DNA of 45,069 nt from Crenothrix polyspora. Lineage in GTDB: Bacteria; Pseudomonadota; Gammaproteobacteria; Methylococcales; Methylomonadaceae. The stretch's first letter is position 1; every line of letters begins with the position of its first letter. Made by a program: the position numbers and the translations under genes. Positions 37,361-40,976 of the stretch are shown here, piece by piece. The stretch covers positions 1-45,069 of the forward strand of contig NZ_FUKI01000148.1 in the NCBI RefSeq assembly GCF_900163755.1, read 5' to 3'. The notes beneath the pieces are model-generated. The model was not told where the DNA came from and did no database searches. It saw nothing but the letters and a program-made list of their open reading frames with translations.

Positions 37361-38001
37361 TGGAACGGTGCAGGGACATTTTAACGGCAGGACTTGAAGC
37401 CTTGTCGCTCACACTGACAGACGCGCAAGTTGAGCAACTGTTAGCTTTCATCAAACTGCTGGCCAAATGGAATAAGGCCTATAACCTGACGGCCATTCGC
37501 AAGCTGGAAGACATGGTGTCGCTGCATTTGTTAGATAGCCTAGCAATATTGCCGCACATCCACGGCCAGCGGGTGATTGATATTGGCACGGGCGCGGGCT
37601 TGCCCGGCATTCCGCTGGCGATCTGCTTGCCCGACCTGCAATTTGTGCTACTGGACAGCAACGCTAAAAAAACGCGCTTTGTACAACAGGCTATACTGGA
37701 ACTGAAATTAAACAACACCCGTGTGCATCACAGCCGTGTGGAAGATTATCAGCCAGAACTGGGTTTTGATACAGTTACCACCCGCGCTTTTGCCAGTTTG
37801 CCGGTTATCATCGATTTAACCAGGCATTTACTGGCTGAAAACGGCGTTGTGTTGGCGATGAAAGGCCAGCAGTTGGCTGAGGAATTGGCATACATAACAC
37901 AAACCACAACGCTGATTCCGATTCATGTTCCAGGTGTTGAGGCGGAGCGGTATCTGGTGCGCATACAATCAACAAAAAACGAGGAACGCATAAGTGGCTA
38001 A
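37360..38001 (+). CDS. rsmG: 16S rRNA (guanine527-N7)-methyltransferase RsmG (GidB)
   Basis: About 213 residues with the SAM-binding motif VIDIGTGAGLPGIPLAI, preceded by WNKAYNLTAIRKLEDMVSLHLLDSL and followed by LLDSNAKKTRFVQQAI, both typical of RsmG. It methylates G527 of 16S rRNA. The ATG overlaps the mnmG stop as TGATG. A GTG one codon upstream is also possible. Its stop overlaps the parA start by 8 bases. Translational coupling through the whole block is likely. Confidence 0.93.
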   Translation: MERCRDILTAGLEALSLTLTDAQVEQLLAFIKLLAKWNKAYNLTAIRKLEDMVSLHLLDSLAILPHIHGQRVIDIGTGAGLPGIPLAICLPDLQFVLLDSNAKKTRFVQQAILELKLNNTRVHHSRVEDYQPELGFDTVTTRAFASLPVIIDLTRHLLAENGVVLAMKGQQLAEELAYITQTTTLIPIHVPGVEAERYLVRIQSTKNEERISG

Positions 38002-38773
38002 AATAATTGCCGTCAGTAATCAAAAAGGTGGCGTGGGTAAAACCACCACCTGTGTCAATCTGGCTGCCGCATTGGCCGCAGCTAAACGCCGTGTGTTATT
38101 GGTCGATCTTGATCCGCAAGGCAATGCGGCGATGGGCTGTGGTGTCGATAAGCAGGAAATTCGCCATTCCAGCTACGATTTATTAATGGAACAAGACAGC
38201 GTACCGGCATCGGAAACTGTGATTGTTTTGCCAACACTGGGCTTTTCGGTGATTGCCGGTAATGCTGATTTAACCGCTGCGGAAGTTAATTTAATGCACG
38301 CTGAGCGCAAGGAATCACGTCTCGCCGATGCCTTGTTGCCCATCAAAGCCGATTATGATTATATTTTAATTGACTGTCCACCGTCACTGAACATGTTGAC
38401 CTTAAACGCAATGGTGGCGGCCAACAGCCTGCTTATCCCCATGCAGTGCGAATATTACGCGCTGGAAGGCATTTCGTCTTTAATGGGCACCTTGAAAAAT
38501 ATTCAGGAAACCGTCAATCCCGAACTATATTTAGAGGGTATTGTCCGCACCATGTACGACGACAGAAATCGCCTGACCAAAGATGTATCTGAGCAATTGC
38601 TCCGCTACTTTGGCGACAAGGTGTTCAGGGCTTGTGTACCAAGAAACATACGCGTCGCCGAAGCGCCCAGCCACGGTTTACCGGTGTTAAACTATGACAA
38701 GTCGTCGCGTGGCTCTATCGCTTATGTTGCCTTGGCCAATGAATTAATTAACAACGAGAAATCTAAAAAATAG
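37994..38773 (+). CDS. parA: Chromosome partitioning ATPase ParA (Soj)
   Basis: 259 residues. Deviant Walker A motif SNQKGGVGKTTTCVNLAAALA, then LLVDLDPQGNAAMGCG, IDCPPSLNMLTLNAM and VRTMYDDRNRLTKDV, the pattern of chromosomal ParA/Soj proteins. It drives segregation of the ParB-parS complex. The GTG start at 37994 overlaps rsmG. It is followed after one base by the mini-ParB gene, then parB. Confidence 0.93.
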   Translation: MAKIIAVSNQKGGVGKTTTCVNLAAALAAAKRRVLLVDLDPQGNAAMGCGVDKQEIRHSSYDLLMEQDSVPASETVIVLPTLGFSVIAGNADLTAAEVNLMHAERKESRLADALLPIKADYDYILIDCPPSLNMLTLNAMVAANSLLIPMQCEYYALEGISSLMGTLKNIQETVNPELYLEGIVRTMYDDRNRLTKDVSEQLLRYFGDKVFRACVPRNIRVAEAPSHGLPVLNYDKSSRGSIAYVALANELINNEKSKK

Positions 38774-38774
38774 T

Positions 38775-39041
38775 ATGGTATTAGCAAAACGAGGATTAGG
38801 GCGTGGTTTGGAAGCCCTGTTGGTGGAAATGCCAGTGATGGCAGAGAAAGCGTTACACAGCCATGACTTAGAGTCATCGCATAACAATCAACATAACCCG
38901 TTTGTGGTGGCCGATTTGCCACATACGCAGAAATTATCAGAGCATAAACAACCGTTAAGCCGTGTATTGCTGGGCGAAGCCGAGGCTTTAAAGGCTTTGT
39001 TGGGCGATTTAGAAGCCATCCTTCAGCGCCGTAGCTTATAA
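38775..39041 (+). CDS. Mini-ParB: 88-residue protein with only the ParB N-terminal motif
   Basis: The first 20 residues (MVLAKRGLGRGLEALLVEMP) closely parallel the N-terminus of the full ParB downstream (MTAIKRGLGRGLDALMGDIS). In ParB this basic GRGL segment is what stimulates ParA ATPase. The remaining 68 residues have no GERR CTPase motif, no HTH and no dimerisation domain. Instead there is a histidine and asparagine-rich linker (SHDLESSHNNQHNP) and a leucine-rich helix (LLGEAEALKALLGDLEAIL). The ATG is one base after the parA stop, so it is strongly coupled to parA. It could be a ParA regulator or a degenerate duplicate. No known family is named for it. Confidence 0.7.
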   Translation: MVLAKRGLGRGLEALLVEMPVMAEKALHSHDLESSHNNQHNPFVVADLPHTQKLSEHKQPLSRVLLGEAEALKALLGDLEAILQRRSL

Positions 39042-39168
39042 TACCAACAGTATTATAAAAATCACCCGCAGCTTTTACAGCTGTTATAAAATCTATACCC
39101 TTCATGTCCGGCTGGCTCGGATTATCTACAACGGGTTACGGCCCTAATCACTACGTATACACAGACAA

Positions 39169-40023
39169 ATGACGGCAATAAAACGTGGCTTGGGTCGAGG
39201 ATTGGATGCCTTAATGGGCGATATTTCGGCGAAACCGGATAAAAACCCCTTACAGACGTTACCGATAGAATATTTGCAACGTGGTAAATATCAGCCGCGC
39301 AAAGATATGAATCCAGAAAAACTCCAGGAATTAACCGATTCCATAAAAGCGCAAGGCGTTATTCAACCGATTGTGGTGCGCAGTATTGGCGCGGATAAAT
39401 ACGAAATCATCGCCGGAGAGCGGCGTTGGCGTGCGGCACAATTGGCCGGTTTGCAGGACATTCCGGTGGTTATCAGGGAGATTGATGACCGTTCGGCGAT
39501 GGCGATTGCGCTGATTGAGAACATTCAGCGCGAAGATCTTAATCCTCTGGAAGAAGCATCTGCTTTAAGACGTTTACTGGATGAGTTTACTATGACCCAC
39601 CAGCAAATTGCTGATGCGGTCGGTAAGTCACGCACCACAGTCACCAATTTGTTGCGACTGATAGATTTACACCCCGATGTTAAAATATTGCTGGTCAATG
39701 GTCAGTTGGAAATGGGGCATGCCAGAGCATTATTGTCTTTGGATGATGTTAAGCAAGTAACGATTGCCAATAAAATCGTTAAAGACGGCTTAACCGTGCG
39801 TGATACGGAACGCCTGGTGAAAGAAAGTCAGATAGCAACGATGCCTGTTAAACGCAAAACTATTGACAACGATACCTTGCGCCTGCAGCAAGATTTAACC
39901 GCGCATCTTGGCGCTAAAGTGATTATCGATCATAAAGATAATGGTAAAGGTAAGCTGGTGATTGCTTATTCTAGCTTGGAAGAGCTGGATGGGATTATTG
40001 AGACGATTAAGCGGAATGGATGA
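39169..40023 (+). CDS. parB: Chromosome partitioning protein ParB (Spo0J)
   Basis: 284 residues. N-terminal ParA-stimulating motif KRGLGRGLDALMG, the CTP-binding region with GERRWRAAQLAGL and ENIQREDLNPLEEA, the parS-binding helix-turn-helix (IADAVGKSRTTVTNLLRLID), and a C-terminal dimerisation region. ParB loads on parS sites and slides along DNA with CTP. The length is usual for a chromosomal ParB. It lies 127 bases after the mini-ParB gene. No parS palindrome is visible in the window. Confidence 0.93.
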   Translation: MTAIKRGLGRGLDALMGDISAKPDKNPLQTLPIEYLQRGKYQPRKDMNPEKLQELTDSIKAQGVIQPIVVRSIGADKYEIIAGERRWRAAQLAGLQDIPVVIREIDDRSAMAIALIENIQREDLNPLEEASALRRLLDEFTMTHQQIADAVGKSRTTVTNLLRLIDLHPDVKILLVNGQLEMGHARALLSLDDVKQVTIANKIVKDGLTVRDTERLVKESQIATMPVKRKTIDNDTLRLQQDLTAHLGAKVIIDHKDNGKGKLVIAYSSLEELDGIIETIKRNG

Positions 40024-40976
40024 TTCACTACCAAAACCTTTAGATTTACTACAGCTGCAAAAAAGGCTTAGCTGAAAATAAATATTCCCACTATCCCTGG
40101 ATAAAATTGACGACGTAACTGTTCAAGCGGACGCAAGACAAGCAATGGCAATCTTTTGTTACTTACAGGTGAATACCTATCGGCCAGTGAAGCTAAACCG
40201 AAGCCGCCTTTTGCACAGCGACAGACCTAACCCACCGGCTTATGGCAACCACAGTGAAATCTGCAAACACATTGGGATGGGTTAACCATCTTTGTTACCA
40301 ACCCAGCAGTAGCCATGAACAATAACTTGGCTAAACGCACTATCCGTGGTGCTATCCTGGGACGCAATAATTACTTTGGTTCCGATGCAATTTGGAGTGC
40401 CGAGTTAGCCGCACACAGCTCTTCTCCCTCTTTACCACCCTACAACAATGGAGGATCAACCGACAGCGATGGCTTTATGAATATCTGACAATGTACGCCC
40501 AAAACCATTGCAAACCGCCAGATGAACTGACGGATTCCGTTCCCTGGTTTATATCTGATGGGCGACGTGCAGCATTGTCCCATTTGTTGGGGAGCTGTGG
40601 AAGGGGGAAATATTTACACGGAACAACCGATAACTGCATGTATCTTTTCAAGATTAATGCCGCGCATTGGGTCTTGACACCATGCACTATATCCCCTATC
40701 CTTAGCTTCAGCCATGACCTGATTAACGATCGACTTTGTCATGCTGCAAAAAAATCGCCATGCGCAAGCAGCTAGAAATATTTTAAGGTAATTCAACGTA
40801 TTTTTAGAATTGCAACAACAACCATTGCCAAACAGGTCTGGCAATAACAATAACTGAAAACACCCTGCGTTTTAACGTGTTTTTAATGTAATAACAAAAC
40901 CGATTGGCAATGGGATTCACTAGCCCGAATTGCTTTTTTGAGTTGTCGTTTTTTTACACTACCTTAGGAAAATCTT
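40024..40976. other. 953-bp gap with decayed transposon sequence
   Basis: Contains an IS66-type transposase fragment (see 40249-40600). Of the rest, 40140-40240 shows another short frame (AMAIFCYLQVNTYRPVK and onward) that may belong to the same element. After 40600 there is AT-rich sequence with a small hairpin near 40827 (ttgcca and tggcaa). No intact gene is supported. Confidence 0.6.
40249..40600 (+). pseudogene. IS66-family transposase (TnpC) C-terminal fragment, frameshifted
   Basis: In one frame the sequence from about 40261 reads LQTHWDGLTIFVTNPAVAM, then NNNLAKRTIRGAILGRNNY, then FGSDAIWSAELAA. This is the IS66 DDE-region pattern, normally NNxAERxxRxxxxGRKNY. After about 40415 homology continues in a different frame: LFSLFTTLQQWRINRQRWL and onward to PPDELTDSVPWFIS. 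There is therefore a frameshift near 40411-40420, and the N-terminal part of the transposase is missing. It is a dead remnant, lying between parB and the OmpA gene. Confidence 0.8.

Follow-up and report, generated by a model that had tools for sequence, protein, structure and literature searches.

Between parA and parB of Crenothrix polyspora, in the window (the whole 45,069-nt stretch of DNA that was analysed), lies a gene for an 88-aa protein, mini-ParB, which is almost certainly a real protein gene derived from parB. Relatives at the same position in several genera, together with strong purifying selection, place mini-ParB beyond chance. In the best explanation, to which we give a probability of about 0.5, mini-ParB is a small ParA partner protein that came from an old parB duplication and would serve as a paired-peptide activator of ParA. 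Its peptide has been split from the ParB clamp and is under selection about as strong as that on ParA. The carriers are a group of methanotrophs, in which mini-ParB may be an inbuilt regulator of the ParA motor for chromosome segregation.

Locus and domain architecture

By ORF reading, the gene occupies 38775..39041 on the + strand, with an ATG start one base past the parA stop (38773), as the original prediction had placed an 88-codon gene; parB starts at 39169 (Table 1). The spacer between mini-ParB and parB shows 82% mean column identity in three genomes of the genus, and it is conserved despite a mini-ParB dS of about 0.5-1.0 in that genus. Judged from its sequence, it is probably the promoter or leader of parB. 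The spacer also contains TGTTATAAAAT, and a 6-pair hairpin can be drawn in it, one pair of which is altered on both sides (three sequences only). Within the 45-kb window around parAB, the parS-like site TGTTTCACGTGAAACA has no match at up to 2 mismatches. On the 3' side of parB, at about 40315-40488, there is a short ORF that we take to resemble the end of an IS66-type transposase; it has stops in the frame examined.

Table 1. Features of the parA-parB region, with window positions
Feature	Position	Strand	Evidence
parA (ParA ATPase, 259 aa, GTG start)	37994..38773	+	Pfam AAA_31, 8e-62
mini-ParB gene, 88 aa, ATG start	38775..39041	+	ORF; relatives at the same position; dN/dS
ParA-binding peptide, residues 5-17 (KRGLGRGLEALLV), central Arg = residue 10	38787..38825	+	motif columns in 46 loci; dN/dS
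Linker, residues 18-53, variable and probably disordered, replacing the ParB CTPase core	38826..38933	+	AlphaFold2 pLDDT <60; dN/dS; length variation
C-terminal helix, residues 54-88, homologous to ParB alpha3-alpha4	38934..39038	+	hhalign; HMM; AlphaFold2
Spacer mini-ParB/parB, 127 nt	39042..39168	+	kept in three genomes of the genus
parB, 284 aa, with all its domains	39169..40023	+	ORF; Pfam

In the ParB of the window, Pfam finds ParB_N, HTH_ParB and ParB_C. In the 88-aa mini-ParB, no Pfam family was found at E values up to 10 (the CTPase ParB_N, HTH, ParB_C and ParB/Srx ParBC families are all missing) and no NCBIfam family at E values up to 1, and a search of solved structures returned a chance match only (E 0.61). 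The ParA-binding peptide is present, reading KRGLGRGLEALL in mini-ParB and KRGLGRGLDALM in its counterpart in the ParB of the window, so that the predicted ParA-stimulating N-terminus without CTPase, HTH or dimer domains is indeed what the gene encodes. By domain content, mini-ParB is thus placed outside the ParB family, whose three defining domains it does not have, yet by sequence descent it belongs to that family's line. Since the CTPase, HTH and C-terminal dimerisation domains are absent, a clamp on parS is not expected of mini-ParB.

The AlphaFold2 monomer of mini-ParB has a mean pLDDT of 64.9 and a pTM of 0.33, and it consists of a short low-confidence helix at residues 10-17, a low-confidence linker and one helix at residues 54-87. 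Along this last helix, the mean pLDDT is 90, 96 and 86 over residues 61-70, 71-80 and 81-88, respectively; over residues 51-60, it is approximately 57. Residues 54-87 are accordingly predicted by the model to form one continuous amphipathic helix. A heptad shuffle test on the C-terminal helix gave p<0.05 in only 26 of 45 related sequences, and the hydrophobic face is broader than that of a plain two-stranded coiled coil. By alignment and AlphaFold2, a charged N-terminal peptide precedes a separate region in mini-ParB, as in the partner proteins of ParA/MinD ATPases.

Conservation and selection

A search with the mini-ParB sequence alone matched 7 of 61 genomes, its own included, and all seven loci have the order parA - mini - parB with open frames. 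The profile of these seven has matches in 202 of the 237 family genomes; many of these pick up no more than ParB's N-terminus, in frames of around 290 aa, and the parA-parB junctions were therefore fetched and judged. Carriers number approximately 110 of the 237 family genomes, seven of them through orphan copies, by a hand count among the matches listed, mostly by match alone (frames of up to 165 aa, plus eight genomes found at parA-parB junctions). Of 105 loci that have both parA and parB, 46 carry an intact mini gene between the two; the 105 are a biased sample and give no prevalence, because some were fetched on the strength of a mini match and others by way of ParB, in 80 genomes for which no strong mini had been listed. 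From 115 loci, five duplicates (L008, L009, L011, L012 and L035), four loci without ParB (L104-L107) and one without ParA (L099) were left out; loci L116-L125 stand outside the 105, and L024 was kept although its ParB reading is only 82 aa. The same gene order was also found in genomes G018, G006 and G202.

Beyond the family, 1 of 74 genomes of the order (311 less 237) matched at E ≤1e-6. In a class sample of 369 genomes and a phylum sample of 398 genomes (G000 included in both), no short-frame relative appeared among the matches listed; apart from the gene of the window, these are frames of at least 201 aa, which are ParBs. No match was found in the plasmids searched. Four candidates from Polaromonas/Rhodoferax (L138, L139, L141 and L143), from a scan listing 18 of 595 stretches, were rejected as full-length ParBs of 310-318 aa.

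On a tree of ParA and ParB, all 46 mini loci fall on one side (46 with and 11 without among 57 loci), and none of the 48 loci on the other side carries a mini; the tree is a quick, midpoint-rooted one, and the branch parting the two sides has an SH-aLRT value of 71. At least six gains or losses are needed, three of them forced by starred branches, and six changes would fit one gain followed by several losses. In all 59 census loci without a mini, the parA-parB gap is at most 61 nt, so no broken remnant is seen there. In the 46 carriers, the mini starts with ATG throughout; it overlaps the end of parA in 31 (by ATGA in 24), and its stop overlaps the start of parB by 4 nt in 10, which is the pattern of a translationally coupled operon. 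The mini proteins of relatives range from 63 to 160 aa.

Selection was estimated on 16 within-genus pairs, hand-picked and kept disjoint after an all-pairs run whose pooled dN/dS was 0.254, from pairs that are not independent; in that run, L029/L031 gave 1.67 on 7 changes and L056/L066 gave 0.31. The latter pair and others were excluded so that the 16 stay disjoint. ATG starts were used for dN/dS, start positions and spacing, which matters for L042, L044 and L110 and gives 0.043 for the first 17 codons, earlier 0.047. The dN/dS of the mini is below 1 in all 16 pairs and 0.241 (0.196-0.294) for the whole gene. It is 0.043 (0.017-0.069) over the first 17 codons, which hold the peptide, 0.340 (0.269-0.410) in the middle, and 0.153 (0.090-0.245) over the last 26 codons, which hold the helix. 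The neighbouring genes have values of 0.048 (ParA) and 0.068 (ParB), and the constraint on the mini peptide is about that of ParA.

The motif LG[R/K]GL, which also served as the rule for detecting minis in the 105-locus census, is present in all 46 mini loci, and its central residue is Arg in 45 and Lys in one. The residue after the motif is Glu in 45 of 46 minis versus Asp in 45 of 46 neighbouring ParBs; this difference has lasted and argues against a recent gene conversion. The ParB peptide reads GLNRGL, not GLGRGL, in L117, L025, L026, L030, L041, L042, L044 and L113 (genera g14, g15 and g17); the mini has N as well in g17 (L117), and the minis of g14 and g15 keep G. In G018, mini and ParB alike have GLNRGL. 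Covariation of the mini and ParB peptides was considered and dropped, with ParB N against mini G in 7 of the 46 loci.

These results bear directly on what the original prediction had expected of a real gene, namely an open frame, the same short gene between parA and parB in related genomes, and constraint in its substitution rates. The intact counterparts in 46 of 105 loci and the dN/dS values below 1 bear it out on all three points; non-conservation is ruled out, and the frames of close relatives are unbroken.

Another finding is that mini genes also occur far from parAB. Short free-standing copies were found in seven g11 genomes, G166 being the seventh, and among the carriers are Methylomonas fluvii EbB and Methylomonas sp. 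LW13; G288, a genome of another family, also has one. These orphan minis keep the peptide RGLGRGLEALL, or RALGRGLEALL in L105, and the parA-parB junctions of the eight orphan carriers have no room for a mini. The neighbours differ between g11 and G288: those in g11 include what we take to be rnfB-like and metG-like genes, and the copy of G288 sits behind a presumably rapZ-like gene. The orphan copies, we infer, arose by transfer or relocation, and the persistence of the mini without its operon suggests that mini-ParB can act in trans. As a separate observation, L119:124-3063 holds a CRISPR-like array with repeats of about 29 nt, mostly every 61 nt, which ends approximately 350 nt before the orphan mini-ParB of that g11 genome; repeat-like translations as in L119 also occur in L105, L107 and L118.

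Origin from parB

By comparing alignments of 27 minis and 10 ParBs with hhalign, the origin of the gene may be traced (probability 99.2, E 1.3e-19). On the ParB side, the match takes in the N-terminus and the last part of the CTPase domain, as far as residue 142, and skips the core in between. An HMM made from the C-terminal columns of the minis alone matches ParBs with a best E value of 1.8e-12. With the C-terminal half of the window mini-ParB by itself, BLAST finds no significant match to ParB (best E 0.22); the homology of this half to ParB rests on the family profile.

An intermediate form is found in L110 (genus g12), where the mini is 147 aa long, shares 60.9% identity with its own ParB over 138 columns, still matches ParB_N at 2e-25 and has GESRW at the position of GERRW in ParB. 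It is the least eroded relative seen; the minis of L108, L111, L142 and L132 (Methylobacter marinus A45, a cultured carrier and the same strain as L109) are more eroded. When the L110 mini is compared with ParBs, its own ParB ranks 19th of 104 and is no nearer than the ParBs of other genera, so the duplication looks old. Taken together, the alignments and these stepwise forms point to an old parB copy, situated between parA and parB, that came to end after alpha4 and has lost its CTPase core in steps. The series of forms, from a 147-aa protein in which ParB_N is still recognisable down to one of 63 aa, shows how a multidomain CTPase can be reduced to a peptide and a helix. The original prediction had raised a degenerate duplicate of the 5' end of parB as the simple alternative; the origin was rightly named (E 1.3e-19 and the 147-aa intermediate), but the decay was not, given a dN/dS of 0.24.

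The C-terminal helix is part of this inheritance. Residues 98-142 of the window ParB align with the 6t1f chain (Caulobacter crescentus ParB) approximately 8 positions later. The C. crescentus protein (PMC8367383, in part) has an N-terminal core at residues 44-121 and a DNA-binding domain at residues 161-221, with alpha3-alpha4 between them, and when its clamp is closed with nucleotide bound, alpha3 of one subunit is packed against alpha4' of its partner. If the 6t1f chain and residue numbers agree, ParB residues 98-142 would lie largely within the alpha3-alpha4 stretch. The helix that had been credited to mini-ParB as its own amphipathic element is therefore predicted by AlphaFold2 at residues 54-87, but it is not its own, being homologous to alpha3-alpha4 of ParB. 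On the other hand, the helix has changed since: at the aligned ParB turn, Leu stands in 27 of 27 minis of alignment A2 (MAFFT), versus Pro in 70, Ala in 26, Ser in 4 and Val in 4 of the 104 ParBs (of 105 in the census) in which the turn was read, with no Leu among them. Counts of Leu65 and Glu68 based on an anchor are partly circular because the anchor pattern required L..E, and the MAFFT alignment was used instead.

Possible roles and known systems

It is likely that mini-ParB works by binding ParA. A main role as a self-associating activator of ParA is somewhat less than an even bet. In this mechanism, the C-terminal helix would self-associate, as suggested by the exchange of alpha3 and alpha4 between ParB subunits, and two ParA-binding peptides would thereby be paired without CTP, parS or DNA. 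Mini-ParB would then bind ParA dimers and stimulate ATP hydrolysis away from partition complexes. Finally, mini-ParB would carry no DNA and would determine how large the nucleoid-bound pool of ParA is and how fast it turns over. Portions of PMC12462528 describe the corresponding steps in Myxococcus xanthus: the N-terminal peptide of ParB is required for ParA binding; the R13A variant binds ParA moderately less and nearly loses ATPase stimulation; and closed ParB clamps, in which the peptides are juxtaposed, stimulate ParA far more than open ones. By motif, the central Arg of the minis appears to correspond to R13, and its retention (45 of 46, with one Lys) favours an activator over a pure competitor.

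More tentatively, mini-ParB may be a natural activator independent of parS and CTP, resembling an "always closed" end of ParB whose two peptides are brought together by a fused alpha3-alpha4 helix, with ParA turned off both at partition complexes and over the bulk nucleoid; it would also be a portable module, a reading drawn from the solitary copies in other genomes. The authors of PMC12462528 argue that the preference for closed clamps minimises futile activation of ParA by free ParB, and a free activator is at odds with this argument. If mini-ParB does activate ParA, the closed-clamp rule needs an exception, and ParA turnover gains a second control; if it does not, mini-ParB would be a natural competitor or adaptor.

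As an adaptor, mini-ParB would hold ParA with its peptide and, with its helix, bind another cargo or a landmark at the pole, the envelope or a scaffold, giving one ParA two clients, as PadC does. In partner proteins of ParA/MinD ATPases, a charged stretch at the N-terminus goes together with a remainder that binds cargo (PMC10241942, in part), PadC is an adaptor related to ParB that also binds ParA (PMC5703909, in part), and the helix is conserved (dN/dS 0.15). However, no cargo suggests itself, the helix goes back to helices exchanged between ParB's own subunits, and the usual neighbourhood is the parAB operon, the orphan neighbours differing between g11 and G288; we regard an adaptor as unlikely. 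A competitor, which would occupy ParB's place on ParA while stimulating it inefficiently and so lower the effective contact between ParB and ParA, is more doubtful still. It would suit a protein that has ParB's peptide with the lasting Glu for Asp difference and, by Pfam, no DNA-binding domain, but 45 of 46 minis retain the Arg linked to stimulation, and against clustered ParB clamps a lone peptide is likely to compete weakly.

The helix could instead pair with that of full-length ParB and tune the closure of the clamp, given its homology to the stretch that ParB subunits exchange at their gate (PMC8367383, in part). This is quite improbable, because the helix is derived, with Leu in 27 of 27 A2 minis versus 0 of 104 ParBs at the aligned site, and because the orphans keep a ParA peptide that this role alone would not need. 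There is hardly any chance that the gene is a decaying parB duplicate or a translational spacer without protein function. Mini-ParB is indeed a parB duplicate, its middle evolves faster, and it is missing in some lineages (on the carrier side of the tree, from 11 of 57 loci), but the dN/dS is 0.24 overall and 0.04 and 0.15 at the two ends, no remnant is seen in the 59 mini-less loci with their gaps of at most 61 nt, and orphan copies persist outside parAB. The decay reading is contradicted by these observations, and bare decay of a parB copy is ruled out by dN/dS and by conservation in relatives.

No report of such a mini-ParB gene was found among the papers listed in searches of the open-licence literature of PubMed Central. 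Compared with chromosomal ParB (Spo0J), mini-ParB shares the N-terminal ParA-binding peptide, alpha3-alpha4, the parA operon and a clear line of descent; unlike it, by Pfam and NCBIfam, it has no CTPase, HTH or C-terminal dimerisation domain. The experiments with peptide 1-20 of M. xanthus ParB and with ParB-delta21, as described in portions of PMC12462528, probe ParA by way of a similar peptide, but their tools are laboratory reagents, and mini-ParB is a natural gene. PadC of M. xanthus is also ParB-related and binds ParA outside the partition complex; in contrast, it is the ParBC domain of PadC that ParA binds, and PadC binds bactofilins (PMC5703909, in part), whereas mini-ParB lacks a ParBC domain and has retained the peptide. 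In layout, mini-ParB resembles the partners of ParA/MinD ATPases (ParB, MinE, McdB, PomX and PomY), in which, according to portions of PMC10241942, a charged N-terminal stretch is followed by a cargo region. PomX and PomY of Myxococcus are described as two activators of one ATPase. By analogy, mini-ParB may work like these partner proteins; unlike them, as known here from sequence, it is a cut-down copy of the ParB of the same system and stands beside the full one.
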